Below are positions 390 to 24,898 of a stretch of 64,000 nt of DNA, in pieces. The translations under genes and the position numbers were made by a program. The notes below the pieces were generated by a model. That model was not told where the DNA came from. It saw only the letters and a program-made list of their open reading frames with translations, and did no database searches. The DNA comes from Liolophura sinensis (lineage: Eukaryota; Mollusca; Polyplacophora; Chitonida; Chitonidae). The stretch's first letter is position 1. Every line of letters starts with the position of its first letter. The stretch covers positions 8,257,704 through 8,321,703 of the forward strand of contig NC_088304.1 in assembly GCF_032854445.1 (NCBI RefSeq), read 5' to 3'.

Positions 390-482
390 CTTTCTGTAAG
401 TTTCCTTCCAAGGTGGCGTTGATGACTTATACATTTGTTTGTGTCTTGACACGGCTGGTGATCGCTTAACCGACCCGTCCAT
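390..482 (-). CDS. RPAIN: RPAIN-like (RPA-interacting protein), first coding exon
   Basis: Partial gene, first exon only. ATG at 482 lies in a good start context (A at -3, G at +4). The exon encodes 31 residues ending in a block reading MYKSSTPPWKETYRK, which resembles the conserved N-terminal block of RPA-interacting protein, the importin-beta adaptor that carries replication protein A into the nucleus. The exon ends in phase 0 at AAAG|gtgtta, a rather weak donor. The rest of the gene, including the zinc-binding C-terminus, would lie beyond base 1; bases 1-389 show no further exon. It is divergent from the INPP5K-like gene, with 503 bp between the two ATGs. The identification rests on one short motif and could be wrong. 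Confidence 0.6.
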
Positions 483-985
483 GATAACAAATCTCCACTG
501 ACTTCGTCTGTGTTTATCACGGCGTCCGCAGTAATGTGTTTTCAGCAATTTCGCGGGTAAGAGCGCCACCTGTGCCAGGGTAGTGGGAATCAAAAAGTCA
601 AATCTAAATTCTACTTGGGAACCGAGTTAAATGTTTATATCTTGTTTTAAATTTTATAAAATATCATGTATTTACCACAAATAAGAAACAATTTCTGATA
701 AAATATATTTTATAGTATATTTTTATATGAAATGTTGCGATTGTATGCTGCTATTTTGTGACGTCCATTACATTTTTCATATCTCAGCCAGATTTGAATT
801 TTTTTGCATGGTTGTCTCCCTTGAATAAGATACAAGTTGCTTGTAAACAGGTGTGGATGCCTAAACTGTCAAACTTGTCTTTGATTTTTATTTATGTTGG
901 TGTCGGCTTGGCGTCACGGTTCAGATCACGATGTAGTTTGGGGCCTGTTAGGTCAGAAAGCTGCGCCGCTCGGACACTCTGTGAA
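483..985. promoter_or_regulatory. Putative bidirectional promoter between RPAIN-like and INPP5K-like genes
   Basis: Start codons of two divergent genes lie at 482 (minus) and 986 (plus). The part nearest the minus-strand gene (about 483-560) has several CpGs, while 600-730 is very AT rich. No convincing TATA box was found for either direction. The plus reading frame is open upstream of ATG 986 back to 758, so an earlier start is formally possible, but 986 has the better context and fits the compact family N-terminus. Confidence 0.5.
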
Positions 986-1053
986 ATGGCGTCCAAAACA
1001 ACACAACACCAGCAAAAGGTGGATAAGCTGTCACGAAAAACCAAGCATTTTAG
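986..1053 (+). CDS. INPP5K: INPP5K-like exon 1 (start)
   Basis: Encodes residues 1-22 and two bases of Arg23. Start context has G at -3 and G at +4. The exon ends AG|gtgagg and joins the G at 3421 to give Arg, leading directly into the [10 protein letters not shown] motif, which supports both the start and the join. Confidence 0.8.
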
Positions 1054-4000
1054 GTGAGGATCATCGCCTCCAATATGCTACTGTATACCTGCAGTTTGTT
1101 AATGGCCTAAACGCTAACATGTACAGGTATATTTAAACTCCGTGCTAAATATAATAGGTTGTATTTGTATATGGCTGTGTGCTGTGAAAAGGTAAATAAA
1201 ATACCCTGCATGTCACGTATTGTCAATAGTATATTTGTAATTTATAGACTTATTTAAATTATCAGCTCGCTTAAATTTCGTTGGTAGTACTAATATTATA
1301 ATGTAAACATTCGTCCTTTTGTTTTCACTGGCACCAAAGTACTGTAGAAACTAGATAGTTCTATAGATTGGGTATTTAGAGCTGTAGTATACAAGTCTGA
1401 CTCCATGCGTTGTAGTACGAAATGTACAAGTAGCGCAGCACAAGTAGATAATGTCATTTTACAGACATGTTAGATGGATGCACAGTGCTGTTTTAAAGAC
1501 AAAGAAAGTAATAAAATGAAGCGTACATGTATATCAGATAAAAGACCAGTAAACACTGTCCAGAAAAATAGTTTCATTTATTTTTTTTAGAATTTTTCCA
1601 ACTACATAATGTGGTTTTAAAACGTTAGGTTCTGCGATGATCTGTATTGTGACCCAAACCTTATCAGTGACATCACATCCATATTTTTGCTTGTGATAGT
1701 TTGTTACCAGTTCCATTCAGTGAATACATTCACTGATCTATATTTATATGTACTTAGCATGATGAAATCTAGCAGTTTGGGTGTCTTAAGTAGCAAAAGC
1801 CTGGTGTGATGTCACTGATCCTGATATGGTCTCAAAGTTTCAAACACATTTTACTGGGTTGAAAAAACTCCAAATAAAATAAATCCCAACTATTTTGTGA
1901 ACAGTGTTCAATAGCCTTTCGTCTGACATTTACTACGCGTTAGTGTTTTCCTTGCCTTTCACATTCATGATGTGACAGACATCATGAGTATCACAATGAA
2001 AGTTTTAAATAGGGCATCCACCAGATGTGTTAAATAGGGATGCCCATGGAATACTGTTAAATACTTACTGTGCAGGGAAAAAACATAAAAAATGAAATAT
2101 CATTGTCAGTAAAGACTTACTTCCTTTTTTGATTTTTCCCTCACTTGATTAAATGCAATAGTAGGAGTGGATTGTAAGGAAGGCTTTAAAGACCATATGA
2201 ATTCATTTGATAATGTATGTCATCTGTTATGTCACACAACTGTTTATATGTTTTTAGAAAAAGTTCAGGTGAGAATAAAATTCATGTTAATTTGAAAGAA
2301 AAGACAACAAATTACGTAACCTGAGCTGTTTAGGAAGAGGAAAGCAAAATGTCAGCCACTTTTTTCTGACTTGTCGGGTAATTCTATAAATCAAGTTTTA
2401 ATCAGGAATTCTTATCATTCGGTGATGAGAGGCGCCATGTTAGAGTAGCCGGAAACATGGTGCTGGATCAGTCATACCGCACATACACATGATTAAAATG
2501 CAAAACAGGGTTTTGGTAACGCTAGCGGAAACAACTGTATCCTCTGGTTATAGAAATAACTCACGCCTGATTGGCTAAATTTGATCACATGGTGGTACTT
2601 TCTGTTTGCACAATTTTGCTTACTTTGAACTGCGATATTTTGGTTGTGCGGTATTACAAGAATAAAAAGTTATACTGTATAAACTTTCTGCGAAGTACTT
2701 TTTGGATGCATATGTACATTTGGCCTAGTGTCTTTTCGTTTAAATTATGTTGTGAGTGCCTCTGCACAAAAAAGCAAATCTGACACTAAATTAGTTTTAG
2801 AGATAGGCGGAGGTTGGTTTGATGGACAAATATGATAGCCTACGTTATGAATATTGTCCATGAAGCTCACCTTAGTATTCAAACATTTGACTGCATTTAA
2901 TTGAAATTATGAAAAAAAAATAAAATAATATATTCAAAAAAAATAATAATAATAATAAATAAATAAAGGTATTTTCACATGCAGTTTTGGATTGACTTTC
3001 TACCTAATATTTAAGCAATTTGGTACTAAGCCACAATCATATATTTGTAATGTTCCTTTCCCTTTAAATATGTAATATATGTACCTCTATGTGTAAAATT
3101 TGAGCCATTATTTCTTCATTTATTGATTTCTAAATATTAATTTACTTATCGATCTTTATTTATTGAAAAATATTTGTTTGTATATCTTTATTTACATCTG
3201 TTTATTTTATTTATATCTTAATTGTTTAATTATTTAATTATTTTTTCTTTCTGTCTGCATGTACATGTAATTACTATTTATTAATCAGATATTAGGGGAT
3301 TTGTACATTAGCTTCATGTTTGGATTAAAAGATAATCTGAATCAACGTTATACATGTACACACCTCAAACTGCAGATAATACATGTACATTTGGTAATGT
3401 TTTTGAATGTCACTTTACAGGTTTCATCTGTGTACTTGGAATGTCGCTTGGAACGATCCTACTGAAGACTTCACAGAGGTTTTATATCTGAAAGCAAAAC
3501 CACTGCCAGATGCATATGCTATTGGGTACAGAATGATTACTGTATAATTTACTGTAAAGAAGTATACATGCTAACAGGAAGAAGCTACCACTTCTGGTTT
3601 TTGTTGTTTAATCAATCATGATCCGGTATTTTAGTTTCACTTTCTAATTGTTTGTGTTGAGATAAGATTCATGCCCTTTACATATAAACTTACAGTAAAC
3701 CAAAAACCTCTGTCATCATGCTCATGCCTGTGATCTTCTCATGCCTACAGTAAACCAAAAACCTGTCGTGTCTGTGACAATCTCATACCTATGTGTAAAC
3801 GAACTGTATACAGTAAACCAAGAACCTGTCAGGTCTGTGGCTATCTCGTACTATGTGTTAACAAACTGTATACAGTAAACCCAAAACTTGTGGCATGCCT
3901 GTGACCACCTCATACCTTTGTGTAAACGTGCTGTATACAGTAAACCAAAAACCTGTCATGTCTTTGGCTATGACATACCTTTGTGTAAACATGCTGTATA

Positions 4001-7000
4001 CAGTAAACCAAAAACCTGTCATGTCTTTGGCTATCACATACCTATGTGTAAACATACTGTATACAGTAAACCAAAAACTTGTAGCATGCCTGTGACGGTC
4101 TCATCCCTGTGTGTAAATGTACTGTATACAGTAAACCAAAAACTTGTGGCATGCCTGTAACCATCTAATACCTACGTGTAGATATGTGTTGTTCTGATTG
4201 TAGGTTACAGGAGGCAGGTCAACCAAACTCTAATGTGGTGACTCACATCTGGACCGTGGCACTCACAGACGCTCTGTCACCCAGAGGCTATGTTCGGGTA
4301 AGAGCAACATTCAGCTGACAACTACATACAGCAGAAATAAAATTTTAGCTATTTTTATCTCAACTGTTACTTGTGTCTTGTCTGTTACACCTGATGTCTG
4401 TGGTTACAGGTGAAGAGTGCTTGTGTACAGGGCCTTATGTGGTTCTGTGTGTACTTGTGTCTCATCTGTTACACCTGTTGTCTGTGGTTACAGGTGAAGA
4501 GTGCTTGTGCACAGGACCTGATGTGGTGCTGTGTGTACCTGTGTCTCATCTGTTACACTTGTTGTCTGTGGTTACAGGTGAAGAGTGTTTGTGTACAGGA
4601 CCTGCTGCTGGTGCTTTGTGTACCTGTGTTTTATGTGTTATGCCTGTTGTCTCTGGTTACAGGTGAAAAGTATACGTTTACAAGGCCTTATGTTGCTGCT
4701 TTTTGTACGTGTCACCCATCTTTTACACCTGACCAACATAGAATCTGAGTTCACGCGTACTGGGCTTGCCGGCTTCTGGGTAAGTACATTCAACACATAT
4801 ATTTACTTTAGAATTGAGAGTTATGTACTTGCTAATTAAAGTTTGAATATCTCTAATGCTCAGCCTTGCTTTAAGCTTTGTTTTCCTAAATCCATGTTTT
4901 TTGTTTTGTCCCAAACATTCAGGTGTGTAAACTGTATTTACCATCTCGTCAGATATTTAGTGCCAAATGAAATGTACTACACCTACATAAAGATTCTCAA
5001 TCCTTGAATGTAGTAGGTCACACTTCAAGAATGGAACCCAAGAGCATCCCACCAATGCGGTCGCCTTGAGTTCAAGTCCAGCACATGATGGCTTTCCTCA
5101 CCAGCAGTGCATGGGAAGGTCTGACAGCAACCTGCGGATGGTCGTCGGTTTTCTCACAGGCTCTTCCCATTTTCCTCCTACCATAATGCTGGCAACCATA
5201 GTGAAATATTCTTGTGTTACATAACACACCAATCAAATAAATAAACAAATTCAAGCCTAAGAGTGTGGAAGTGAGAAATAATGATCATTGTAGTGAAGTT
5301 GTCATCACTTTGTGTGTGTATAATTGCGGAGATTGATGGTTTACACCACTAAAAAAGTTCTGTTTGATTTGCAGGGTAACAAGGGTGGTGTGAGTATCAG
5401 AATGGATGTGAACGGAATCAACACCTGTATAGTGAACTGTCACCTGGCAGCTCATCAGGATGAGGTGGGAGAGCGCATAGAGGTAAGTTAGGCTCTGGTC
5501 ATGTGGGCCACTGCTGTGTTCTTATTGTGTACATATACTCACATATTTAATTTGTTGTGTATGTATTTTAAGCGAAATGTAACAGAAGGCTTTTTCCTAC
5601 TTCAAGTAGATATAATATCCTAAACTGATGAATCAAGACCAGAAAAAATACTGGTTTGAACGAGACTGGAACTCAGGACCCGAGGTGTTTAGTCCCACCA
5701 TTCTACAAGCTGAGCTGTCTGGCCAGATGGGATTGGCTCACTTGTTTGAGTTTAGTTACATGCACTGACAGATTTGTCACAAAAACAGTATATTTTTTTG
5801 GAGCCAGTATTTTCACTGGTCTCGATTTTCGATATTCCTGGTTTTTCCAATATGGTGTATCCATATTTGGTCAAGTAATAATATTCTGATATGGTGTATC
5901 CAGTGGCCTCATAATAATTCTCCAATATGGTGTATCCCATGGCATTGTAATAATTTTCTGATATGGTGTATCCCATGGCCTCGTAATAATGCTCTTATAT
6001 GGTGTATCCCATGGCCTCGTAATAATGCTCTAATATGGTGTATCCAGTGCCTCATAATAATGCTCTAATTTGGTGTATCCGGTGGCCTCATAATAATGCT
6101 CTAATATGGTGTATCCCATGGCCTTGTAATAATTCTCTGATATGGTGTATCCGGTGGCCTCGTAATAATTCTCCAATATGGTGTATCCCATGGCCTCGTA
6201 ATAATGCTCTAATATGGTGTAGCCCATGGCCTCGTAGTAATTCTGTAAATATTGTGTATCCCATGGCCTTGTAATAATTCTCCAAAATGATGTATCCGAT
6301 GGCCTCGTAATAATATGGTGTATCCAATGGCCTCGTTATAATTTTCAAATACGGTGTATCCCATGGCCTCATAATAAGTTTCTAATATGGTGCATTCCAT
6401 GGCCTCGTAATAATTCTCTGATGTGGTGTATCCCATGGCATCATAATAGTTTCAGATTTAAACTTGGTTTATAGTGTTTATACCAAGCACTTGAGGAAAA
6501 AAAAGGCTGCGGCCTTTTAGTCTATGTTTGACGTCAAAATAAGATTTTGTAAGCCTTGACTTTTCTTGTGTAACATAAGATGCTCGTCTGATGACGAAAT
6601 TCTACGGAATAAATTGTACGGAATCAATCTATAAAACAGAATGTTTTAGTTGAGAAGAAATCAATGATTGGACCCACACACCATGCCACAGTGTACAGGG
6701 TCGGACTGGAAATTTGTAGGTTCTCCTGCCCTTGCTACCTCTATGGCGCTTCAGTTCGCGCTTTGATTCTTACAGATTGATACTGATACATACTGACAAA
6801 TGTATGTACAACATATTTGCGGAACAAAAAGTCGTTGTACATATCCTTACGTTACATGTGGAAAAGAGGTCATTGTTTTCTATCAGACTGTCTAATCTGC
6901 AAAATGTCATTGTTTTCAATCTGGCACTCTAACCAGCAAAAGGTCATTGTTTTAACCATTCACTCTAACTTGCAAGAGGTCATTGTTTTCCACCAAGCAC

Positions 7001-10000
7001 TCTAAATGGCAAAAAGTCATTATTATCCCAAGCACCTTACCTGCAAAAGGTGATTGTTTTCTACGGGGGCATTGTAGCCTGCTAAAGGTCGATGTTTTCC
7101 ACCTGGCACTCTTATATGCAACAGGTCATTGTTTTCCACTGTGCACTCTAACCTGCAAAAGGTCATTGATTTCCACTGTGCACTCTAACCTGCAAAAGGT
7201 CATTGTTTTCCTCCAGGTACTTCAACCTGCAAAAGGTCATTGTTTTTCCTCCAGGTACTCTAACCTGCAAGTTTGTTTTCCACCTGGAAAGGTTTTTCTC
7301 CAGGCACTCTAACTTGCACAAGCTCATTGTCTTCCACTGTGCATTCTAACTTGCAAAAGGTCATTGTTTTTCACTGTGCACTCTAACCTGGAATAGGTCA
7401 TTGTTTTCCTCCAGGCACTCTAACCTGCAAAAGACCATTGTTTTCCACCTGGCACTCTAACTTGCTAAAGGTCATTGTTTCCCCCCGGGCACTCTAACCT
7501 GCAAAAGGTCATTTCCACCTGGCACTCTACCTTGCAAAATGTCATTGTTTTCCACTGTGCACTCTAACCTGCAAAAGGTCATTGTTTTCCTCCAGGTACT
7601 CTAACCTACAAAAGGTCATTGTTTTCCTCCAGGCACTCTAACCTGCAAAAGGTCATTGTTTTCCACTGTGCACTCTAACCTGCAAAGGGTCATTGTTTTT
7701 GTCCAGACTCTCTAACTTGCAAAAGGTCACTGTTTTCCATTGTGCACATCTAATCTGCAAAAGGTCATTGTTTTTTTCCAAGGCACTCTAATCTGTAAAA
7801 GACCATTGTTTTCCACCTGGCACTCTAACCTGCAAAAGGTCATTGTTTTCCTCCAGGCACTCTAACCTGTGAAGGTCATTGTTTTCCAACAGGCACTCTA
7901 ACCTGCAAAAGGTCATTGTTTTTTCACTGGGCCACTGTAACCTGCAAAAGGTGACAAATTTTTGAGTTTGTCGTCAGACTTCAGTCAAATACATACATAT
8001 GAATGATCGATGCGATGGATTTTGGTCAGTGAGTTTCTGCTCTGCCAAAGGCCATGTGTTGTAGACATGACAGCCCTAGAACCTCATTATTAACCCTTTG
8101 TTGGTCATCAGTTTAATTTTGTTGGTACCTGTACTCAGCATCCCAAAGGCCTGCTCCCTTGGGATTGTTTTCATGATAATTTTAACATTTTAGACCAGTG
8201 ACTTCTGATAGATTGTAATTAACATCACAGCATTTGTGGCTAGAAAATCTTGCTTGCGTCATGTTGCCAGGAGGAATGTTTTCACTACTGTTTAAACATT
8301 TACATGAACTCTTCCATTTACAAGAATAAAAGTGTGTTAAACTAAGGCACATTCTATATGCAGATATAATGGATTTTACCATTTACATCTGTCATTTATA
8401 GCACCACCTTTTATATATTGTTTGATATATGTTGTTTGATAGATTTATATTAAATGGAGCTTTATTAGCAGCAGAAATATATGTATTTCATCTCTTTACA
8501 GGATTTTTATACCATTGTTGAAAATCAGCGCTTCAGAGATAAAGATGTAGACTTTATCCTGGACCATGAGTGAGTAAGACATTCAATTCCAGTTCAGTAT
8601 TTATTCAGAACATATAGAATTTAGTTTTTGCTCCACAGAAACTATTTGGCTTTTGTTTTGTACACTTTTAAGTGGTATTGTATGAGCCCATGTTGTGTAG
8701 GAAATCCAAAGCAGAGTTTCAGTGTGGATGAGTACAGTATTGTTAGGTTATTGTGAAGGGATTTTGTACACTTGAGTGGTGTTGTCCGAGTGCATGTTGT
8801 GTAGGAAATCCAAAGCAGAGTTTCAGTGTGGATGAGTACAGTGTTATTAGGTTATTGTGAAGGATTTTGTACACTTTCAAGTGGTGTTGTCCGAGTGCAT
8901 GTTGTGTAGGAAATCCAAAGCAGAGTTGCAGTGTGGATGAGTACAGTGTTATTAGGTTATTGTGAAGGATTTTGTACACTTTCAAGTGGTGTTGTCTGAG
9001 TGCTTGTTGTGTAGGAAATCCAAAGCAGATTTGCAGTGTTGATGAGTACAATATTATTAGGTTATTGTGAAGGATTTTGTACACTTTTAAGTGGTATTGT
9101 ATGAGCCCATGTTGTGTAGGAAATCCAAAGCAGAGCTTCAGTGTGGATGAGTACAGTGTTATTAGGTTATTGTGAAGGATTTTGTACACTTTCGAGTGGT
9201 GTTGTCCGAGTGCATGTTGTGTAGGAAATCCAAAGCAGAGTTTCAGTGTTGATGAGTACAGTGTTATTAGGTTATTGTGAAGGATTTTGTACACTTTCGA
9301 GTGGTGTTGTCCGAGTGCATGTTGTGTAGGAAATCCAAAGCAGAGTTGCAGTGTGTATGAGTACAGTGTTATTAGGTTATTGTGAAGGATTTTGTACACT
9401 TTCGAGTGGTATTGTATGAGCCCATGTTGTGTAGGAAATCCAAAGCAGAGGTTCAGTGTGGATGAGTACAGTGTTATTAGGTTATTGTGAAGGATTTTGT
9501 ACACTTTCAAGTGGTGTTGTCTGAGTGCTTGTTGTGTAGGAAATCCAAAGCAGATTTGTAGTGTTGATGAGTACAATATTATTAGGTTATTGTGAAGGAT
9601 TTTGTACACTTTCGAGTGGTATTGTATGAGCCCATGTTGTGTAGGAAATCCAAAGCAGAGTTTCAGTGTGGATGAGTACAGTATTATTAGGTTATTGTGA
9701 AGGATTTTGTACACTTTCGAGTGGTATTGTATGAGCCCATGTTGTGTAGGAAATCCAAAGCAGAGTTTCAGTGTGGATGAGTACAGTGTTATTAGGTTAT
9801 TGTAAAGGATTTTGTACACTTTCGAGTAGTGTTGTCAGATTGCATGTTGTGTAGGAAATCCAAAGCAGAGTTTCAGTGTGGATGAGTACAGTGTTAATAG
9901 GTTATTGTGAAGGATTTTGTACATTTTCGAGTGGTGTTGTCCGAGTGTATGTTGTGTAGGAAATCCAAAGCAGAATTGCAGTGTGGATGAGTACAGTGTT

Positions 10001-13000: not shown

Positions 13001-16000
13001 CAGAACCTTCAATTTTTTTCTAGATATGGTCCTGTCATGAGTTGTTTGTTAGACAAACACATAATGAATACATGTGTATAAATGTACATTGTGGTTTTCT
13101 GTTTTCTCAGCTATGTGTTCTGGATTGGAGACCTGAACTTTAGACTGGATGATCTCAAGAATGAGGAGGTCATGGAGTGCATTAAGAAGAGAGAATATAG
13201 CAAACTATGGCCTTACGATCAGGTGAGACATTGAGAGGTGTGTTAAGGGGAGCGAGTATAGCAAACTATGGCCTGACTATCAGGTGAGACATTGTGAGGT
13301 GTGTTGAGTGGAGAGAGTAAAGCCAACTGTGGCCTTACGATCAGGTGAGACATTGAGAGGTGTGTTAAGGGGAGAGTGTATAGCAAACTGTGGCCTTATG
13401 ATCTGATGAGACACTGTGAGGTGTGTTGAGGGGAGAGAGTACAGCCAACTGTGGCCTTATGATCAGGTGAGACATTGAGAGGTGTGATGAGGGGAGAGAG
13501 TATACCAGAGTGTGGCCTTATGATCAGATGAGACATTGTGAGGTGTGATGAGGGGAGAGAGTATGGCAGACTGTGGCCTTATGATCAGGTGAGACATTGA
13601 GAGGTTTGTTGAGGGGAGAGAGTAAAGCCAACTGTGGCCTTACAATCAGGTGAGACATTATGAGGTGTGTTAAGGGGAGAGAGTATAGCAAACTGTGGCC
13701 TTACGATCAGATGAGACATTGTGAGGTGTGTTAAGGGGAGAGAGTATAGCAAACTATGGCCTTATGATCTGATGAGACACTGTGAGGTGTGTTGAGGGGA
13801 GAGAGTACAGCCAACTGTGGCCTTATGATCAGGTGAGACATTGAGAGGTGTGATGTGGGGAGAGAGTACAGCCAACTGTGGCCTTATGATCAGATGAGAC
13901 GTGAGGTGTGATGAGGGGAGAGAGTATGGTAGACTGTGGCCTTATGATCAGATGAGACATTGTGAGGTGTGATGAGGGGAGAGAGTACAGCCAACTGTGG
14001 CCTTACGATCAGGTGAGACATTGAGATGTGTGTTGGAAGAGAGTATTTCAAACTGTGGCCTTGTGATCAGGTGAGACATTATGAGGTGAGTTGGGAGAGA
14101 GTACAGCCAACTGTGGCCTTATGATCAGGTGAGACCTTGAGAGGTGTGTTGAGGGAAGAGAGTATAGCAAACTGTGGCCTTATGATCAGGTGAGACATTA
14201 TGAGGTGTGTTAAGGGGAGAGAGTATAGGAAACTATGACCTTATGATCTCTTGAGACATTGAGGTGTGTTGAGGGGAGAGAGTATAGCACACTGTGGCCT
14301 TATGATCAGGTGAGACATGCTTCTCTCTTGTGTGTTACCGGCTTTATTTCTTATTTGTATAATTTCCTACATACCTTTGTCTTCGGGAGTTAGTGTTAAA
14401 CGTTGTTGTGGAAATAGATCTTGCGATTATCGACTTGAAACGCCCTTTACGGACTACGAATGGTATAGGAATGTCTGACTTGACGCTTGTATTATGAGGT
14501 GTGTTGGGAGAGAGTATAGCAAACTGTGGCCTTACGATCAGGTGAGACATTGTGAGGTCTATAGAGAGTAGAAATTACAATTACCTACTGCCTTATGATC
14601 AGGGCAGACATTGCGAGGTGTATAGAGAGTAGAGATTACAGTTACCTACCACCTTATGATCAGGTGAGACATTGTGAGGTGTATTGAGGGGAGAGATGAC
14701 TTACCTGTGGCCTTACAATCAGGTAAGACATTGCGAGACTTATTGAGAGTAGAAATTACAGAAGCCTGTGGCTTTTTGAGCAGGTGAGACATTTTATGGT
14801 ATGCTGTTTGTTAACGACTTCAGAACAGTATGAGCACCTGTTGTAATGTGCCCACTGTGAGAACACACATGTAAGCCTACCTAAAAGTTTGCATAAATTT
14901 ATGCTGAACGCTTGAATCTAGTTACATCTATTAACCTGAATTCCTCCAATGCATCAAGATACTGCTTGAGACAGTTTTGTTGTGTTTTCAATTTTGCAGC
15001 TGAATAAGAGTCGTGAAGATGGGGTGATTTTTCTTGACTTTGATGAGGGCCCTCTTGACTTCCCACCCACATACAAGTTTGATCTGGGAACCGATACCTA
15101 CGACACTTCAAAGTGAGTTTTGTTAAGGTGCTTAGCTTGAAATTGCGCGATCACATGAACTTTGGGATCAATGCCATTCTTGGACAGGGAGTTTTCAGTA
15201 GTTTCATGATGCCTCCTCTCATAATTCACTCCCCCTGGCCCTGCGCAGTGTCCCCTCACCATTATGCTGTGAAATATGCTTGAGCACAGCATAAAACACA
15301 AATCTATGAAATAAAGTATAAATAATATATTCATAGCAGCAAGATACTGTTATGTGTTACTGTACTTTTAGTTACAGCATGAAGGTACATGTACAGTTAT
15401 GTGTTACTGTACATGTAGTTACAGCATGAGGGCATGCTGGCTTCCTCTCCGGCCGTACATGGGAAGGGCTGCCAGCAACCAGCTGATGGTCGTGGATTTC
15501 CCCCAGGCTCTGCCTATTTTCCCACCACCATAATGCTGGCCACTGTCGTTTGAGCGAAATATTCTTGAGAATGGCAAAAACACCAATGAAATAAATAAAA
15601 AAATAAATACAGCGTGAGGGTACAGTTATGTCTAACTGTAGCATGAAGTTACTGTTGTGTGTTAGTGTAGTTACAGCATGAAAGTACTGGTATGTGTTAA
15701 TGTAGTTACAGCATGGAGGTACTGTTATGTGGAGGTACTGTTATGTGTTAGTGTTGTTACAGCATGGAGGTTCTGTTATGTGTTAGTGTAGTTACAGCAT
15801 GGAGGTACTATTATGTGTTAGTGTAGTTACAGCATGGAGGTACTGTTATGTGTTAGTGTAGTTACAGCATGAAGGTACTGTTATGTGTTAATGTAGTTAC
15901 AGCATGGAGGTACTGTTATGTGTAAATGTAGTTACAGCATGGAGGTTCTGTTATGTGTTAGTGTAGTTACAGCATGGAGGTACTGTTATGTGTTAGTGTA

Positions 16001-19000
16001 GTTACAGCATGAAGGTACTGTTATGTGTTAATGTAGTTCCAGCATGGAGGTACTGTTATGTGTAAATGTAGTTACAGCATGGAGGTTCTGTTATGTGTTA
16101 GTGTAGTTATAGCATGGATGTACTGTTATATGTTAACATAGTTACAGCATGGCGGTACTGTTATGTGTTTGTGTAGTTACAGCATGGAGGTACTGTTATG
16201 TGTTAGTATGCTGTTGTATGTTTGTGTAGTTACAGCATGGAGGTACTGTGATGTGTTAATGTAGTTACAGCATGGAGGTACTGTTATAAGTTAGTGTAGT
16301 TACAGCATGGAGGTACTGTTATGTGTTAACGTAGTTACAGCTTGGAGGTACTGTTATATGTTAGTATGCTGTGATGTGTTAGTGTAGTTACAGCATGGAG
16401 GTACTGTTATGTGTTAGTGTACTGTTGTATGTTTGTGTGGTTACAGCATGGAGGTACTGTGATGTGTTAGTATAGTTACAGCATGGAGGTACTGTTATGT
16501 GTTAATGTAGTTACAGCATGGAGGTACTGTTATGTGTTAATGTAGTTACAGCATGGAGGTACTGTTATGTGTTAGTGTTGTTACAGCATGGAGCTACTGG
16601 TATGTGTTAGTGTACTGGTATGTGTTAGTGTGGTTACAGCATGGAGGTACTGTTATGTGTTAATGTAGTTACAGCATGGAGGTACTGTTATGTGTTAGTG
16701 TTGTTACAGCATGATGGTACTATTATGTGTTAGTGTTGTCACAGCATTGAGGTACTGTTATGTGTTAGTGTACTGTTATGTGTTAGTGTTGTTACACCAT
16801 GGCGGTACTGTTATGTGTTAGTGTACTGTTATGTGTAAGTGTAGTTACAGTATGGAAGTACTGTTATGTGTAAGTGTAGTTACAGCATGGAGGTACTGTT
16901 ATGTGTTAATGTAGTTACAGCATGGAGGTACTGTTATGTCTGTGTATGGCTGTGTATAGCAAACATATTTTATTTCTGTTCCTATTAATCAATGTCAAAA
17001 TGTTGTCAAAATTAGGAATGTTTAGTGAAATTATATAACAAAACTATAAATACTCAAGGCAGTTTCACAACAAGCTGATATTCAACACAAGTAGTAATTC
17101 TCCCCTATATTTGTGTTGTAAAGTAAATACAACTTCTTTTGCAGAAAAAGTCGTAAGCCTGCTTGGTGTGATCGCATCCTGTGGATGGTTCATGAAGATG
17201 CCTTTGAAGGTATTGAGCTGGAAGCAAAGCAGTTGAATTACACCAGTCACACCTCCTACACCCTGAGTGACCACAAACCTGTTACTGCTCTCTTTGACAT
17301 AGTGGTGAGTCCCACAGCTGAGTTACACCAGTCACACCTACACCCTGAGTGACCACAAACCTGTCACTGTTCTCTTTGAGATAGTGGTGAGTCCCTCAGC
17401 TGAGTTACACCAGTTACACGTACACCCTGAGTCACCACAAACCTGTCTCTGCCCTCTTTGACACAGTGGTGAGTCTCACAGCTGAGTTACACCAGTCACA
17501 CCTACACCCTGAGTGACCACAAATCTGTCACTGCCCTCTTTGACACAGTGGTGAGTCCCACAGCTGAGTTACACCAGTCACACCTCCTACACCCTGAGTG
17601 ACCACAAACCTGTCACTGCCCTCTTTTACACAGTGGTGAGTCCCACAGCTGAATTACAGCAGTCACACCTACACCCTGAGTGACCACAAACCTGTCACTG
17701 CCCTCCTTGAGACAGTGGTGAGCCCCTCAGCTGAGTTACACTAGTCACACCTACACCGCGAGTGACCACATACCTGTCACTGCTCTCTTTGACATAGTGG
17801 TGAGCCCCTCAGCTGAGTTACACTAGTCACACCTACACCGCGAGTGACCACAAACCTGTCACTGCTCTCTTTGACATAGTGGTGAGTCCCACAGCTGAGT
17901 TACACTAGTTACACCTACACCCTGGGTCACCACAAACCTGTCACTGTCCTCTTTGACATAGTGGTGAGTCCCACAGCTGAGTTATACCAGTCACACCTCC
18001 TACACCCTGAGTGACCACAAACCTGTCACTGCTCTCTTGGAGATAGTGGTGAGTCCCACAGCTGAGTTACACTAGTCACACCTACACCCTGGGTCACCAC
18101 AAACCTGTCACTGCCCTCTTTGACATAGTGGTGAGTCCCACAGCTGAGTTACACTAGTTACACCTATACCCTGGGTCACCACAAACCTGTCACTGTCCTC
18201 TTTGACATGGTGGTGAGTCCCACAGCTGAGTTACACTAGTCACACTTCCTACACCCTGGGTCACCACAAACCTGTCACTGCACTCTTTGACATAGTGGTG
18301 AGTCCCACAGCTGAGCTACACTAGTTACACCTATACCCTGGGTCACCACAAACCTGTCACTGCCCTCTTTGACATAGTGGTGAGTCCCACAGCTGAGTTA
18401 CACCAGTCACTTCCTACAAACCTGTCACTGCACTCTTTGACATAGTGGTGAGTCACACAGCTGAGTTACACCAGTCACACCTCCTACACCCTGAGTGACC
18501 ACAAACCTGTCACTGCCCTCTTTGACACAGTGGTGAGTCCCACAGCTGAGTTATACCAGTCACACCTCCTACACCCTGAGTGACCACAAACCTGTCACTG
18601 CTCTCTTTGACATAGTGGTGAGTCCCACAGCTGAATTACAGCAGTCACACCTACACCCTGAGTGACCACAAACCTGTCACTGCTCTCTTTGAGATAATGG
18701 TGTGTCCCTCAGCTGAGTTACACTAGTTACACCTATACCCTGGGTCACCACTATCCTGTCACTGTTCTCTTTGACATAGTCGTGAGTCCCACAGCTGAGT
18801 TATACCAGTCACACCTCCTACACCCTGAGTGACCACAAACCTGTCACTGCTCTCTTGGAGATAGTGGTGAGTCCCACAGCTGAGTTACACTAGTCACACC
18901 TACACCCTGAGTGACCACAAACCTGTCACTGCCCTCCTTGAGACAGTGGTGAGCCCCTCAGCTGAGTTACACTAGTCACACCTACACCGCGAGTGACCAC

Positions 19001-22000
19001 ATACCTGTCACTGCTCTCTTTGACATAGTGGTGAGCCCCTCAGCTGAGTTACACTAGTCACACCTACACCGCAAGTGACCACAAACCTGTCACTGCTCTC
19101 TTTGACATAGTGGTGAGTCCCACAGCTGAGTTACACTAGTTACACCTACACCCTGGGTCACCACAAACCTGTCACTGTCCTCTTTGACATGGTGGTGAGT
19201 CCCACAGCTGAGTTACACCAGTCACACTTCCTACACCCTGGGTCACCACAAACCTGTCACTGCTCTCTTTGACATAGTGGTGAGCCCCTCAGCTGAGTTA
19301 CACCATTTACACCTACACCCTGGGTCACCACAAACCTGTCACTGCACTCTTTGACATAGTGGTGAGTCCCACAGCTAAGTTACACTAGTTACACCTATAC
19401 CCTGGGTCACCACAAACCTGTCACTGCTCTCTTTGACATAGTGGTGAGTCCCACAGCTGAGTTACACTAGTTACACCTATACCCTGGGTCACCACAAACC
19501 TGTCACTGTCCTCTTTGACATAGTGGTGAGTCCCACAGCTGAGTTACACCAGTCACACTTCCTACACCCTGGGTCACCACAAACCTGTCACTGCACTCTT
19601 TGACATAGTGGTGAGTCCCACAGCTGAGCTACACTAGTTACACCTATACCCTGGGTCACCACAAACCTGTCACTGCCCTCTTTGACATAGTGGTGAGTCC
19701 CACAGCTGAGTTACACCAGTCACTTCCTACAAACCTGTCACTGCACTCTTTGACATAGTGGTGAGTCCCACAGCTAAGTTACACTAGTTACACCTATACC
19801 CTGGGTCACCACAAACCTGTCACTGCTCTCTTTGACATAGTGGTGAGTCCCACAGCTGAGTTACACTAGTTACACCTATACCCTGGGTCACCACAAACCT
19901 GTCACTGTCCTCTTTGACATAGTGGTGAGTCCCACAGCTGAGTTACACCAGTCACACTTCCTACACCCTGGGTCACCACAAACCTGTCACTGCACTCTTT
20001 GACATAGTGGTGAGTCCCACAGCTGAGCTACACTAGTTACACCTATACCCTGGGTCACCACAAACCTGTCACTGCCCTCTTTGACATAGTGGTGAGTCCC
20101 ACAGCTGAGTTACACCAGTCACTTCCTACAAACCTGTCACTGCACTCTTTGACATAGTGGTGAGTCACACAGCTGAGTTACACCAGTCACACCTCCTACA
20201 CCCTGAGTGACCACAAACCTGTCACTGCCCTCTTTGACATAGTGGTGAGCCCCTCAGCTGAGTTACACTAGTCACACCTACACCGCGAGTGACCACAAAC
20301 CTGTCACTGCTCTCTTTGACATAGTGGTGAGTCCCACAGCTGAATTACAGCAGTCACACCTACACCCTGAGTGACCACAAACCTGTCACTGTCCTCTTTG
20401 ACATGGTGGTGAGTCCCACAGCTGAGTTACACCAGTCACACTTCCTACACCCTGGGTCACCACAAACCTGTCACTGCTCTCTTTGACATAGTGGTGAGTC
20501 CCTCAGCTGAGTTACACCATTTACACCTACACCCTGGGTCACCACAAACCTGTCACTGCACTCTTTGACATAGTGGTGAGTCCCACAGCTGAGTTACACT
20601 AGTTACACCTATACCCTGGGTCACCACAAACCTGTCACTGTCCTCTTTGACATAGTGGTGAGTCCCACAGCTGAGTTACACCAGTCACACTTCCTACACC
20701 CTGGGTCACCACAAACCTGTCACTGCACTCTTTGACATAGTGGTGAGTCCCACAGCTGAGCTACACTAGTTACACCTATACCCTGGGTCACCACAAACCT
20801 GTCACTGCCCTCTTTGACATAGTGGTGAGTCCCACAGCTGAGTTACACCAGTCACTTCCTACAAACCTGTCACTGCACTCTTTGACATAGTGGTGAGTCA
20901 CACAGCTGAGTTACACCAGTCACACCTCCTACACAGTTGAGTTACACCAGTCACACTTTAATTCTTTATTACAACATTCAACACAAGTTAAACAAATAAT
21001 TAAACATATTAGAATGTCTGAAATTTGTGTAGTGAGTTCATGACTACTTTTTGTTACCTTGAAGTTTTATGAAATCAACCAAATGTAGCCTACATTTGAA
21101 TAAGAGTTTAATCTATCAAACAGAAGGATGTGTAAACAGGGTATTATCCAAAAATTTTAATGAAAGTGTTCAAACGTCCCTTTTCGAGGCTATTTTGTTA
21201 TAGCAGAGTGTCCAGATTTCATTTTCTCCTATGTTAAAAGTGCTTAAAACAAGGTATCCAAATAGCACCACATTTCTGTTTCACGGGTAGCTGGCTAACC
21301 CTAGGTGTGTAAATCTTACAGATTGTTCTACTTCCTTATTTGAATGTTAGGTTTTGGCGCATCCCAGGCCATCGCCCGTCACCTTTGTACGAACAAGTCG
21401 GTGGTACAAGACATCAGATAACACAGTAACCTACAGAGTGGAGGCTGGTATGGCTGTCAGTGGCTGGGATTGGATTGGACTCTTCAGGGTATGGCCTCTA
21501 GATGGAAATACATCACTTAAAGGAAACATGAAAGGCTTCCTTTATATTTCATAGTACACAGTTAACATATATGATCTGGTCTAACATGTTACAGGACATT
21601 AAAACTTCTCAGCTACCTTCTGCTCAAGCTGGCTTCCTCTCCAGCTGTAGGTGAGAATGTCTGCCAGCAACCTGCAGATGGTAGTGGGTCTTCCCCGGGC
21701 TCTGCCTGGCTTATAATGCTTTCCACTATGATGCTGGCAGCCATCGTGTAAGTAAAGTATTCTTGAGTACGGAGTAAAACACCAATCAAATTAATAAATA
21801 AATCCCAGGAGGTCAGTCCAGAAATGAGCTGGATTTGAACCATGTTATTTAATTACAAGGTGCAATACTGCAACGTGCAATATTACCACAGCAATCATTA
21901 AAATAAGTGTGATTGCTTGGTACTACAACATGGGATAACTGGTGAATTTGTTTTCTCAATTAATGGTTTGTTTATACATTCAAAAGATCGAATGAAGATA

Positions 22001-24898
22001 ACTTTCAGATTTTTTAAGGCCTTAATGTTAGCCTGATTTAACTTAAATGTAACATCCTTTGTGGGACTGTGATTTGTGTATAGCTGTGACCATTGGCCAT
22101 ATCTGATATCTGAAGCCCTCCTGAACCTCTGGCTCATTGGCCAGTTATCTGAAGCCCTCCTGAATAGACCATAAGCCAGATCAACAGGGAAGCTAGTCAC
22201 CTCTGGCTCGGCGGCCTGAAGCCTCCTGAAGCCCTATCTGAAGCCCTCCTGAACCTCTGGCTCATTGGCCAGTTATCTGAAGCCCTCCTGAATAGACCAT
22301 AAGCCAGACCAATAGGGAAGCACGTCACCTCTGGCTCTGAAACCCTCCTAAATAGACCTGCAGCCAAACCAGCAGGGAAGCACATCACCTCTGGCTCATT
22401 GGCCAGGTATCTGAAACCCTCTTAAATGGACCTGCAGCCAAACCAGCAGGGAAGCACATCACCTCTGGCTCATTGGCCAGGTATTTGAAACCCTCCTAAA
22501 TAGACCTGCAGCCAAACCAGCAGGGAAGCACATCACGTCTGGCTTATTGGCCAGGTATCTGAAACCCTCCTAAATGGACCTGCAGCCAGGCCAGCAGGGA
22601 AGCACATCACCTCTGGCTCATTGGCCTGGTATCTGAAACCCTCCTAAATTGACCTGCAGCCAAACCAGCAGGGAAGCACATCACCTCTGGCTCAATGGCC
22701 AGGTATCTGAAACCCTCCTAAATAGACCTGCAGCCAAACCAACAGGGAAGCACATCACCTCTGGCTCATTGGCCAGGTATCTGAAACCCTCCTAAATAGA
22801 CCTGCAGCTAAACCAACAGGGAAGCTTATCACCTCTTACTCATTGGCCAGGTATCTGAAACCCTCCTAAATGGACCTGCAGCCAAACCAGCAGGGAAGCA
22901 CATCACCTCTGGCTCATTGGCCAGGTATTTGAAACCCTCCTAAATAGACCTGCAGCCAAACCAGCAGGGAAGCACATCACCTCTGGCTCAATGGCCAGGT
23001 ATCTGAAACCCTCCTAAATAGACCTGCAGCCAGGCCAGCAGGGAAGCACATCACCTCAGGCCCAATGGCCAGGTATCTGAAACCCTCCTAAATGGACCTG
23101 CAGCCAGGCCAGCAGGGAAGCACATCACCTCTGGCTCATTGGCCAGGTATCTGAAACCCTTCCAAATGGACCTGCAGCCAAACCAGCAGGGAAGCACATC
23201 ACCTCTGGCTCAATGGCCAGCTATCTGAAACCCTCCTGAATAAGCTTCCAGGTATCTAAATCGCTCAGGAATAGACCGGTAGCCAAACCAGTAGAAAAGC
23301 ATGTCACTTCTGGCTCATTGGCCAGGTGCCTGAAGCCCTCCTGAATGTGTTGCCAGGTATCTGAAGTCCTCGGGAATAGGCCTGCAGCCAAACCAACAGG
23401 AAAGCCTGTCACCCCTGACACATTGAGCAGTTAACTGAAGCTCTCCTGAATAGTACATAGGTATGTGAAGCCCACCTAAATAGGCCTGCAGCCAAACCAG
23501 CAGGAAAGCATGTGACCTCTGGCTCATTTGCCAGGTGTCTGAAACCCTCCTAAATATGTTGCCAGGTATCTGAAGCCCTCAGGAATAGGCCGGCAGTCAA
23601 ACCAGCAGGGAAGCACATTCAAACAAAATGGTTGGACGTGTTAGCAAATTTAGCCGGCAAACTTCCCCCAAAATGTTTTTGTACATGGTGTCTGTAACAA
23701 CTACATGTAACACTGTATTCGTGTCAGAATGTTCTCTTTATCCTTTAGGACCGCTTTGGTTGTCTTATGGTTAGAATGTCTGCCTCCAAGTTGGAAGACC
23801 TGGGATCAAACCTGGGTCAGGTTATGCTCTTTGCTGCCTTATTTGGCGCACTTAACTGAGAGGTTAGAGCAAGGAAACAGGACTGGTTGGCTAGGTATCA
23901 GTATAATGTGACTGAGTGAGGTGTCATGTCTAGTGTCTTCGGCATGATGTTTCAATGGTGGCAGCACTTTGGCGGCATGGCCACAAGAGGACCCTGCATA
24001 TGTACACACACACCTATTCACTCCTCGTTGTCTTTTGACTGAAAAATTGTTAAGTACGATGTCAAACCCCTAGCATTCATTTACTCATTCTTTTCCTTCA
24101 GGCTAATTTCCGTGATTTTAAAGACTACTCCCTGTATGTGTGGGCCATTGCTGGTGAGGGGAAGCCAGAGTACTCGGTGACATTCAGTAAACCGTCTCTG
24201 CTACCCTTGGAAAGTACAGGCTCTGCTACATCAGCAGTGCAAACGACACGCTGATGGGCATGAGTGAAGAATTTGAGGTAGGTACCACACTTGTAAGTAC
24301 ATAGTGCATCTATGTGTTCCAGCCTTCAACCATTACGGACCGAGCTATGTTGCAATTCCCACATTCAGTACTGAGGGTTGCAGGTGGGGGGATGTGAGAA
24401 GTATATGTTGGCTCCCTGATTGTCATTGTATTTTATTGAAACTTGATACATGGTTTCACCATAAAATGGTGTTGGGCCTGCAGCCTCAAAAGAGAACTTG
24501 TGGTTTAGGAACAAGTGGCCAAAATTAAATAATGAAGAGGAGAATGTTTATCTATTCATGGTTCTCATATACATTTACACTGTAATACTGTGAGCTTAGG
24601 TTTCAAAAAGGATTTTGAGCATTAAAGATCCTTACACTTTGATATTTACTTCTACTTTATAAATTCTTATCCTCATTTCTTGTATGTTGGCTTCCTGTCC
24701 GGCCGTACTTGAGAAGGTCTGTCAGCAACCTGCGGATGGTCGTGGGTTTCCCCCAGGCTGTGCCTGGTTTCCACCCACCATAATGCTGGCGGCCGTCGTA
24801 TAAGTGAAAAATTCTTGAGTACAGAGTAAAACACCAATCAAATAAATAAATAAATAAATCATTTCTTGTACTGTTTTTTTTTCTAGCTTGCAGAGTAA
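986..24898 (+). CDS. INPP5K: INPP5K/SKIP-like inositol polyphosphate 5-phosphatase with C-terminal SKICH domain (12 exons)
   Basis: Exons: 986-1053, 3421-3525, 4204-4297, 4663-4779, 5375-5482, 8502-8569, 13111-13222, 15000-15112, 17145-17304, 21351-21488, 24102-24277, 24887-24898. Every join keeps codon phase with GT-AG borders. The product is about 423 aa (human INPP5K is about 448). The family removes the 5-phosphate from PI(4,5)P2, PI(3,4,5)P3 and soluble inositol phosphates, at the ER and ruffling membranes. Motifs: TWNV (28-31), GLQE (58-61), NKGG (130-133), NCHLAAH (149-155), FWIGDLNFR (190-198), [10 protein letters not shown] (265-274) and SDHKPV (303-308). SKICH occupies about 320-418. 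No proline-rich extension is seen, which favours INPP5K over INPP5J. Oddity: the SKICH exon 11 is one base short, so the frame as written stops early although the conserved SKICH end continues in the next frame. Introns carry nine large tandem arrays. Confidence 0.9.
1054..3420 (+). other. INPP5K-like intron 1
   Basis: A 2.4-kb AT-rich intron without exon-like sequence. It holds a simple AT-rich run at about 2,908-2,968 (AATAAT/AAAT units) and ends in cactttacag at 3420. Confidence 0.7.
3421..3525 (+). CDS. INPP5K: INPP5K-like exon 2
   Basis: Encodes the first strand of the 5-phosphatase fold, [10 protein letters not shown], and ...PDAYAIG, leading to the Mg-binding QE in the next exon. The donor is GG|gtaca, with the glycine codon split. 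Confidence 0.88.
3690..4175. repeat. Tandem repeat, ~63-bp unit, INPP5K-like intron 2
   Basis: About seven diverged units sharing the core ctgtatacagtaaaccaaaa, which includes the palindrome CTGTATACAG. The array ends 30 bp before the exon 3 acceptor. A 63-bp unit is a multiple of three, so short reading frames through it are not evidence of coding. Confidence 0.85.
4204..4297 (+). CDS. INPP5K: INPP5K-like exon 3
   Basis: Begins LQEAG, the catalytic motif that contains the metal-binding Glu, and ends ...SPRGYVR at CGG|gtaaga in phase 0. Confidence 0.88.
4395..4735 (+). repeat. Exon-4-edge tandem repeat, ~85-bp unit, 4 copies
   Basis: Units start at about 4395, 4480, 4564 and 4649 with gtctgtggttacag followed by GTGAAGAGT. 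The last unit is the true exon 4 acceptor and exon start; the three upstream units are copies of ~20 bp of intron end plus ~63 bp of exon. Each keeps a usable-looking ttacag|GTGAA acceptor. Confidence 0.88.
4663..4779 (+). CDS. INPP5K: INPP5K-like exon 4
   Basis: Encodes 39 residues, [17 protein letters not shown]...TRTGLAGFW, typical of this family between the QE and NKGG motifs. Its acceptor and first ~60 bases are the last and least altered copy of a four-unit array. Confidence 0.88.
5000..5252 (+). mobile_element. SINE (family A, tRNA-derived, V-/Deu-like core), plus orientation
   Basis: Contains the AATGCGGTCGCC...GAGTTCAAGTC tRNA-like end, the CAACCTGCGGATGGTCGT core, CCTACCATAATGCTGG and the tail ending caatcaaataaataaac. 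Diverged but nearly full length; intron 4. Confidence 0.8.
5375..5482 (+). CDS. INPP5K: INPP5K-like exon 5
   Basis: Encodes [10 protein letters not shown] and the IVNCHLAAH motif. It ends ERIE|gtaagt in phase 0. Confidence 0.92.
5848..6455. repeat. Tandem repeat, ~36-bp unit, intron 5
   Basis: About 16 units of the form atatggtgtatcccatggcc plus tcgtaataattctct. The 36-bp period gives a 12-residue repeat ([12 protein letters not shown]-like) on the minus strand, but frames break repeatedly. Confidence 0.9.
6880..7960. repeat. Tandem repeat, ~38-bp unit, intron 5
   Basis: About 26 units built on cactctaacctgcaaaaggt followed by cattgttttcc. Many keep the octamer AAAGGTCA, which equals the NR4A/NGFI-B monomer binding site. 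Confidence 0.92.
8502..8569 (+). CDS. INPP5K: INPP5K-like exon 6
   Basis: Encodes [11 protein letters not shown]...DFILDH plus two bases of Asp187. The acceptor is ctttacag and the donor GA|gtgagt. Confidence 0.85.
8656..11436. repeat. Tandem repeat, 105-bp unit, ~26 copies, intron 6
   Basis: Units share gtgtaggaaatccaaagcag with starts 105 bp apart (8700, 8805, 8910...). The unit is a multiple of three and one minus-strand frame lacks stops, so antisense frames of 562 and 358 residues run through it as a 35-residue repeat. Variants recur 945 bp apart (10,231 and 11,176), showing a nine-unit higher-order repeat. I regard it as noncoding intron satellite. Confidence 0.93.
11437..13110 (+). 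other. INPP5K-like intron 6, remainder
   Basis: Unique-looking sequence after the 105-bp array, with no exon-like signal that I trust. Around 12,090-12,760 it has a patchwork resembling old DNA-transposon remnants, but I cannot delimit an element. Confidence 0.5.
13111..13222 (+). CDS. INPP5K: INPP5K-like exon 7
   Basis: Encodes [15 protein letters not shown], the WxGDxNxR signature with the catalytic Asp and Asn, and ends KLWPYDQ|gtgaga. Its last ~50 bases plus donor recur about 24 times in the next intron. Confidence 0.92.
13173..14800 (+). repeat. Exon-7-edge tandem repeat, ~62-bp unit, ~24 copies
   Basis: Each unit is ~50 bp matching the 3' end of exon 7 (core AGCAAACTATGGCCTTA and CGATCAG) plus ~12 bp of intron starting gtgagacattg. 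The first unit is the real exon end. About 16 of ~24 units keep CAG|GTGAG or CAG|GTAAG; others carry CAGATGAG or similar changes that remove the donor GT. A unique insert lies at about 14,320-14,490. Confidence 0.92.
15000..15112 (+). CDS. INPP5K: INPP5K-like exon 8
   Basis: Encodes [20 protein letters not shown]...[17 protein letters not shown], the family segment preceding the PAWCDR motif. Donor AA|gtgagt. Confidence 0.9.
15200..15345 (+). mobile_element. Degenerate SINE (family A) 3' part, plus orientation
   Basis: Weak match to the SINE core and tail (ccattatgctg, tgaaatatgcttgagcac, ataaaacac). Intron 8. Confidence 0.45.
15425..15612 (+). mobile_element. SINE (family A), 5'-truncated, plus orientation
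   Basis: Has GCTGGCTTCCTCTCCGGCCG, the GATGGTCGTGG core, ACCATAATGCTGG and the tail caatgaaataaataaa. It sits within the start of the 35-bp satellite region. Confidence 0.85.
15640..16940. repeat. Tandem repeat, ~35-bp unit, ~35 copies, intron 8
   Basis: Unit of the form gttatgtgttagtgtagtta followed by cagcatggaggtact, with scattered short deletions and partial units. Confidence 0.92.
17145..17304 (+). CDS. INPP5K: INPP5K-like exon 9
   Basis: Encodes the substrate-binding [11 protein letters not shown] signature and the catalytic SDHKPV motif (His-containing), ending ALFDIV|gtgagt. The 3' half of this exon with its donor is the founder of a 3.6-kb tandem array in the following intron. Confidence 0.92.
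17222..20958 (+). repeat. Exon-9-edge tandem repeat, ~82-85-bp unit, roughly 44 copies
   Basis: The unit contains ~72 bp matching the end of exon 9 (codons for [20 protein letters not shown]) plus ~12 bp of intron beginning gtgagtcccacag. The first unit is the functional exon end. Most copies keep the strong donor GTG|gtgagt. Blocks of several units are themselves duplicated, for example a ~400-bp block (about 19,370 and 19,770) and segments near 17,750 and 18,990, showing recent unequal exchange. Confidence 0.94.
20959..21350 (+). other. INPP5K-like intron 9, unique remainder
   Basis: AT-rich intron sequence between the exon 9 array and the exon 10 acceptor. Nothing else seen. Confidence 0.6.
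21351..21488 (+). CDS. INPP5K: INPP5K-like exon 10 (start of SKICH domain)
   Basis: Encodes the linker after the catalytic domain and the SKICH start [21 protein letters not shown], ending AGG|gtatgg. Trp-Asp-Trp-Ile-Gly is a SKICH hallmark. SKICH directs the human enzyme to membrane sites. Confidence 0.88.
21625..21812 (+). mobile_element. SINE (family A), 5'-truncated, plus orientation
   Basis: Contains GGCTTCCTCTCCAGC, GCAACCTGCAGATGG and the end ttgagtacggagtaaaacac with caatcaaattaataaat. Intron 10. Confidence 0.85.
22080..23615. repeat. Tandem repeat, ~74-bp unit, ~20 copies, intron 10
   Basis: Unit core ggctcattggccaggtatct then gaaaccctcctaaat and cctgcagccaaaccagcagg. Units at both ends are more diverged and vary in length. 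Confidence 0.9.
23727..24070 (+). mobile_element. SINE (family B, tRNA-derived), near full length
   Basis: The tRNA-like head has an A-box-like tggttagaatg and a B-box-like gggatcaaacc. The body contains agaggttagagcaaggaaac, gtcagtataatgtgac-like sequence and the end gactgaaaaattgttaagta. The insert ends about 30 bp before the exon 11 acceptor. Other copies lie at 58,041-58,236 and 32,190-32,300. Confidence 0.75.
24102..24277 (+). CDS. INPP5K: INPP5K-like exon 11 (end of SKICH domain, apparent 1-base deletion)
   Basis: Encodes [20 protein letters not shown]...VTFSKPS in frame. It then needs a shift near 24,200-24,212 to read on as [20 protein letters not shown], the conserved SKICH end. The exon is 176 nt, with phase 0 needed at both ends, so exactly one base is missing. 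In the literal frame a TGA follows at about 24,253. A sequencing or assembly error, a polymorphism or a real truncation are all possible. Confidence 0.82.
24683..24862 (+). mobile_element. SINE (family A), 5'-truncated, plus orientation
   Basis: GGCTTCCTGTCCGGCCGTAC, GCAACCTGCGGATGGTCGTG, CACCATAATGCTGG and an (AAAT)n tail. It ends about 25 bp before the terminal exon acceptor. Confidence 0.88.
24887..24898 (+). CDS. INPP5K: INPP5K-like exon 12 (terminal: three codons and stop)
   Basis: A long pyrimidine tract ends in ttctag at 24886, then CTT GCA GAG TAA closes the frame in phase 0. A second AG six bases downstream (24,893) would skip the stop and open a repetitive tail, described in the findings. 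A longer tail or another terminal exon cannot be excluded. Confidence 0.55.
   Translation, partial: LAE

Follow-up and report, generated by a model that had tools for sequence, protein, structure and literature searches.

In the human IFI6 gene (6-16, G1P3), a minisatellite with multiple splice donor sites was reportedly described by Turri et al. in 1995 (NAR 23:1854). Two of the downstream repeat units of IFI6 are reported to be used as donors, with three mRNA species (PMC4526556). In amphioxus, tandem repeats lying across exon/intron boundaries have been named "mirages" and are described in Adh3, in globins (BflGb6 and BflGb9) and in troponin C, with similar repeats in PGBD5 (PMC3087553, PMC3902484). 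According to these two reports, the units measure 10 to 160 bp, 5′ and 3′ boundaries can both be affected, AG or GT is found in many copies, not in all, regular splicing is reportedly undisturbed, and the two haplotypes of BflGb6 carry 6 and 3 repeat units; mirages were also proposed as a step toward new introns (PMC3087553). Here we describe arrays of this kind in a mollusc, the chiton Liolophura sinensis, centered on a stretch of 64,000 nucleotides (NC_088304.1, positions 8,257,704 to 8,321,703, hereafter the window) in which the end of the eighth modelled exon (E8) of an INPP5K-type phosphatase gene is repeated in tandem together with its 5′ splice site.

Tandem Repeats Finder (TRF) delimits the E8 array at 17230-20863, with 44.3 copies of an 82-bp unit. 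It also reports higher-order periodicity at 249 bp, extending to 20934, and at 331 bp, extending to 20927. A terminal partial copy reaching ~20958 brings the whole array to ~3.7 kb. Counted from the donors, the copies number 45, of which the first is the authentic exon end; 28 units are of 82 bp, 13 of 85 bp, and 4 of 68 bp, with 31 distinct sequences among them. The repeat unit consists of the final 75 exonic nucleotides of E8 followed by 10 intronic ones. GT is present in all 45 donors, which read GTG/GTGAGT in 37 copies (the slash marks the exon end), GTG/GTGAGC in 6, GTC/GTGAGT in 1, and ATG/GTGTGT in 1. The window contains 46 instances of the core TGGTGAGY, 43 of them inside the E8 array; the expectation from shuffles is 5.4, and none of 100 shuffles reached 46.

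The array of about 44 copies put forward in the original prediction is therefore real, by TRF (44.3) and by the donor-anchored count (45) alike, although its length had been set slightly short at 3.6 kb. The unit was rightly seen as an exon end with its 5′ splice site, and the exon homology upstream of the donor, on whose absence the claim had been staked, amounts to 75 nt; however, this homology starts at 17230, upstream of the SDHKPV codons from which it had been drawn, and the intron contributes 10 bases rather than ~12. The reading frame bears out the first unit as the true end of the exon. A stop was also correctly placed shortly beyond the normal exon end, where an in-frame TGA follows after 15 codons (the stop ends 48 nt past the donor). 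The label "exon 9" given to 17145-17304 has no established basis for its number, this exon being the eighth of ten in our model.

All ten modelled exons have AG/GT borders, and the spliced model has a single open frame running from E1 into E10, E1 to E9 being fully open. The spliced product matches PF22669 (Exo_endo_phos2) over profile positions 1-287 of 288 (254 bits, E = 2.6e-75), E8 itself being covered by this match, and its closest sequence match among solved structures is INPP5K (6.3e-73). Positions 1-65 of the 103 of the SKICH profile are matched in the frame of the gene, which meets a stop codon in E10, and the end of the domain (80-102) is only weakly matched in another frame of E10 (E 0.0028, below the curated cut-off). 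As assembled, the gene is without a complete SKICH domain, and the frame break in E10 may stem from mis-assembly, polymorphism, or genuine decay. Because the SKICH frame is already broken in E10, the further proposal that array length modulates SKICH inclusion finds little support. A short motif scan of positions 1-3400 found no exon before E1, by which an earlier exon is not excluded, and family searches, in which weak matches could be missed, found no other genomic locus with both a 5-phosphatase and a SKICH match. Tandem arrays occupy 63% of the E1-E10 span and 31% of the window.

Two more arrays of the same gene contain an exon edge. In the E6 array, the end of E6 and its GTGAGA donor form a 61-bp unit in 24 copies including the authentic one, GT being kept in 16 and gone in 8. 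In the E3 array, an 84-bp unit in 4.3 copies takes in the 3′ splice site with the beginning of E3, so that three decoy acceptors precede the authentic acceptor. Both donor arrays (E6 and E8) begin with the authentic junction, and the acceptor array (E3) ends with it. The idea of the E8 array as a singular event was ruled out by the E6 and E3 arrays, and then by the samples of exons from other genes. The introns of the gene also hold large minisatellites that are purely intronic, such as the one at 8656-11435 (105 bp, 26.5 copies, 92% match).

The exon samples were drawn from protein-homology matches in four families (5-phosphatase, myosin head, kinesin, and SNF2). The 55 stretches taken (243 kb in total) contain 166 of 260 Pfam hits, which were selected for short exon clusters before the arrays were inspected; the 260 hits include 4 in the gene of the window and 1 in a partial copy of it, none of which was sampled. 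One hit is a copy inside an array (C11:27414708), leaving 165 exons. By inspection, 14 of these 165 carry a junction array that includes the exon border with its splice site, on the donor side in 11 and on the acceptor side in 3. The first batch contributed 9 of 123 and the SNF2 batch, drawn separately as a second sample, 5 of 42; arrays cover 14.0% and 15.2% of these batches, respectively. Dropped from this manual count were C4:1247172 and C8:57507741, whose arrays are intron-only, and C6:81217734, with 1.8 copies and at most 10 nt of exon; the counted acceptor C9:4628084 shares merely ~7 nt of exon. The arrays include a kinesin exon end in ~22 copies (73-bp unit), a myosin acceptor in ~43 copies (32-bp unit), and a kinesin acceptor in ~44 copies (27-bp unit). 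When 15 of the 17 known junction arrays are pooled, GT or AG is intact in 232 of 263 non-authentic copies; this figure leaves out C9:5672128, which had no copies at the threshold, and C1:4181132. Junction-spanning arrays are apparently common in the chiton genome.

Two observations were made along the way in this material. In the kinesin array of C11:27407000-27415000, a single longer copy near the array end (7709-7831 of that stretch) extends deeper into the exon and scores as a separate kinesin hit. The adjacent and similar myosin exons at C1:26642195 and C1:26643291 (within C1:26636600-26646500) match overlapping profile positions and are possibly mutually exclusive alternatives.

All testable structural features of the amphioxus mirages are found in the chiton arrays. 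Their units hold an exon end and the adjoining intron (E8, E6, E3), splice signals are kept in many copies, not in all (45 of 45 at E8, 16 of 24 at E6), and both exon boundaries are hit, within the gene and in the sample. What appears to be new relative to amphioxus is the phylum, the copy number (45 at one junction), the presence of three arrays within a single gene, and an initial figure for how often sampled exons carry one (14/165). In amphioxus, splicing and length polymorphism were examined, whereas the chiton arrays are known here from the genome sequence of one haplotype. As in IFI6, the 5′ splice site at the exon end lies within the repeat unit; unlike IFI6, where downstream donors are reported as used, the later donors of E8 run into a stop. 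A likeness also exists to intron gain by tandem duplication of an AG/GT sequence, since splice signals are multiplied in both, the chiton arrays multiplying an existing boundary; no new intron was noticed, although no search aimed at one was made. Among the matches listed by a literature search, no junction-spanning array is described for a mollusc in the text retrieved, and the retrieved text on an intronic minisatellite of an abalone gene and on intron repeats of an earthworm metallothionein describes no junction-crossing repeat.

To compare the number of junction arrays with chance, we used a null in which founding units are placed uniformly and fully tolerated, arrays are collapsed, and the present unit stands for the founding unit; where arrays were merged, their shortest period was taken, which makes the expected number somewhat lower. 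The automatic count, which takes in C6:81217734 and omits C1:4184566 (a hit spanning two exons), gave 14 junction-crossing arrays among 74 (10 donor, 4 acceptor). With a founding unit of 1× the present one, 4.5 crossings are expected (P = 4e-5), rising to 7.2 at 1.5× (P = 0.009) and 9.9 at 2× (P = 0.10); an earlier, cruder null without collapsing had given 3.2. On the donor side, the 10 found compare with 2.2, 3.6, and 5.0 expected at 1×, 1.5×, and 2× (P = 3e-5, 0.0025, and 0.022), while the acceptor side showed no clear excess (4 against 2.2 expected; P for at least 3 = 0.39). This suggests a donor-side preference of the arrays, which hinges on the size assumed for the founding unit.

By a different test, repeats were no more frequent at junctions than in introns. 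Among 30-nt windows scored for being repeated nearby, 10 of 126 called donors were positive (including one that is itself an array copy), as were 2 of 103 called acceptors and 4 of 166 exon middles, against 259 of 1500 random non-exon positions. A random intron position falls inside repeats more often than a donor does because the arrays are long. Array coverage likewise climbs away from the exon: on the donor side it is 6.8% within 0-25 nt and 14.4% at 400-800 nt, and on the acceptor side it goes from 2.5% to 15.7%.

The strength of the donors was assessed by predicted U1 pairing in 12 of the 13 donor arrays known here (E8, E6, and the 11 sampled, C9:5672128 being left out). In none of the 12 was the authentic donor weaker than the average copy (it was stronger in 10 and equal in 2), which fits selection acting on the authentic site only while unused copies drift. 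The extent of the weakening differs, with the mean copy at -8.4 against -8.7 kcal/mol for the authentic donor at E8, and at -6.8 against -11.7 kcal/mol in one myosin array. At E8, 36 of the 44 copies reach the pairing of the authentic donor, in line with the earlier statement that most copies keep a strong donor, so that the choice of donor there must rest on something besides strength. As a weak indication of selection on array copies, conservation of the splice positions exceeded that of the remaining anchor in 11 of 15 arrays, the copies having been found by matching that same anchor.

A stop precedes the second donor in 9 of the 13 donor arrays, and the second donor shifts the frame in two. 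In two others (C9:5672128 and C10:23493386), a later donor would add in-frame sequence. The second of these is an SNF2-type exon (C10:23493386-23493511, minus strand) followed by a 48-bp junction array of 8.6 copies by TRF; the array is open in frame across the sequence examined (C10:23493000-23495700), and with use of a later donor each unit would contribute 16 residues after GTPIQNNLQ.

RNA structure hiding the decoys was considered as a general rule and rejected. At E8, the copies predicted to be easier to open than the authentic donor number 2, 10, 9, and 1 of 44 with flanks of 70, 50, 100, and 150 nt, respectively, and 22 of 44 copies carry GGGTCACCAC, which is complementary to the donor region, and are predicted to be harder to open. 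However, no such trend was seen in the other 11 donor arrays, where opening the authentic site is predicted to take less energy than opening the mean copy in 5 and more in 6, so this is merely a local idea for E8.

The history of the E8 array can be followed at one other locus. Among its scored matches, a DNA search of the whole assembly found a single further site with E8 and its array, an inverted partial gene copy ~41 kb upstream of E8, in which portions of the catalytic motif and of the reading frame of E8 are lost. Its array has 9 donor-anchored units, the first of 78 bp and the other 8 of 85 bp, and GT is kept in 7 of the 9. Unit 16 of the window is identical to unit 3 of this paralogue, units of the two arrays interleave in a tree, and the unique sequence flanking both arrays, which takes in E9, shows 87.9% identity across 813 aligned columns. 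As unit types are common to both arrays, several of them, and hence the array, predate the duplication. The 82-bp and 68-bp types are found only in the window array, which suggests that the latter expanded after the duplication, and the difference between 9 and 45 units is suggestive of array turnover.

Table 1 Features of the INPP5K-type gene, its junction arrays, and its partial copy (window positions unless a contig is given).
Feature	Position	Strand	Basis
E1 (...AIG)	3421..3525	+	spliced model
E2 (...RGYVR)	4204..4297	+	spliced model
Acceptor-type junction array, E3	4368..4731	+	TRF; decoy starts 4410, 4494, 4578; authentic 4663
E3	4663..4779	+	spliced model, INPP5K alignment
E4 (GNKGGVSIR...)	5375..5482	+	PF22669 match, spliced model
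E5	8502..8569	+	spliced model
E6, catalytic GDLNFR motif	13111..13222	+	PF22669 match, spliced model
Donor-type junction array, E6	13189..14793	+	TRF; compact 13189-14318, degenerate 14524-14793
E7	15000..15112	+	PF22669 match, spliced model
E8, last 75 nt = exonic part of repeat unit	17145..17304	+	PF22669 match, open frame, INPP5K alignment
Donor-type junction minisatellite, E8	17230..20958	+	45 donor-bearing copies (82/85/68 bp) and last partial copy
Authentic 5′ splice site GTG/GTGAGT, first of 45 donors	17305..17310	+	spliced model, donor count
E9, SKICH part 1	21351..21488	+	SKICH profile match, spliced model
E10, SKICH part 2, frame interrupted	24102..24277	+	stop in frame of gene; weak other-frame SKICH end
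Broken partial gene copy: E8, 9-unit array, E9, flanking intron arrays	C10:8226001-8236000	-	DNA search

We consider it quite probable that the E8 array is a splice-junction minisatellite, or mirage, whose first donor is used and which is spliced out as intron, a tolerated passenger of the gene. A founding tandem duplication across the E8/intron boundary would have been followed by amplification to 45 copies through unequal exchange or replication slippage, and as the array would have grown on the intron side, the exon-proximal copy would have remained the real exon end. Most likely by exon definition, the upstream acceptor would pair with the first donor, giving the shortest exon (160 nt), and the entire array would be removed as intron. 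Transcripts spliced at a later donor would carry the early stop and would be expected to undergo nonsense-mediated decay, the copies thus being non-productive decoys in an array that turns over. Exon definition from the upstream acceptor, together with decay of the wrong products, is in our analysis the likeliest determinant of donor choice at E8, and the regular splicing reported for the amphioxus mirages is the nearest support for this step. Several points weigh against this explanation: we infer the use of the first donor from the reading frame alone, the 36 copies that match the authentic donor in predicted U1 pairing offer the spliceosome no difference in strength, and the interruption of E10 may leave room for decay of the gene, in which case splicing accuracy would be irrelevant.

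That parity in pairing, together with the early TGA past the first E8 donor, would also suit a regulated form of unproductive splicing, in which the decoys are used appreciably and array length sets the fraction of transcripts with the TGA, hence the dosage of the enzyme, and downstream repeat units do serve as donors in human IFI6 (PMC4526556). We hold such regulation to be quite unlikely, given that the amphioxus Adh and troponin C mirages are reported not to produce aberrant mRNAs (PMC3902484) and that 8 of the 24 donors of the E6 array are without GT, which argues that copies are not generally maintained. The interruption of E10 could instead mean that this INPP5K copy is losing its function and accumulates arrays as its splicing accuracy is no longer selected, a possibility to which the large share of the E1-E10 span taken up by tandem arrays (63%) and the broken partial copy upstream would lend some weight. 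This too seems unlikely, since E1 to E9 are open, the ten exons have AG/GT borders, the catalytic motifs including SDHKPV are intact, and the Pfam match reaches 254 bits; similar arrays moreover lie on myosin, kinesin, and SNF2 exons of other genes, and the family searches, within their sensitivity to weak matches, revealed no second 5-phosphatase locus with SKICH. As long tandem arrays are error-prone and the HiFi coverage is 14× (PMC11068029), the copy number, or the array itself, might also stem from mis-assembly. An artefact of this kind is highly improbable, however, in view of the 31 distinct sequences among the 45 units, the separate 9-unit array of the same family at another locus, a mean HiFi read length (8,347 bp, PMC11068029) exceeding the 3.7-kb array, and the same structure at junctions of other genes.

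The chiton arrays extend this type of repeat from cephalochordates to molluscs and link minisatellite growth to the evolution of gene structure. The choice between near-identical competing donors is usually studied with engineered constructs. The chiton genome offers many natural cases, with up to 45 donors per array and an authentic site known from the protein, and because the weakening of the decoys varies, being strong in the myosin array and hardly present at E8, exon definition, site strength, and distance could be separated by RNA-seq. With somewhat less than even confidence, we propose that splice junctions, and above all 5′ splice sites, are preferred founding sites of minisatellites in chitons, that mirages have recurred in at least two distant bilaterian phyla, and that a sizeable share of genes in such genomes may be spliced past dozens of decoys by position, that is by exon definition, and not by strength. 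Genes carrying such junction arrays offer a natural test of how the right splice site is chosen among its look-alikes.

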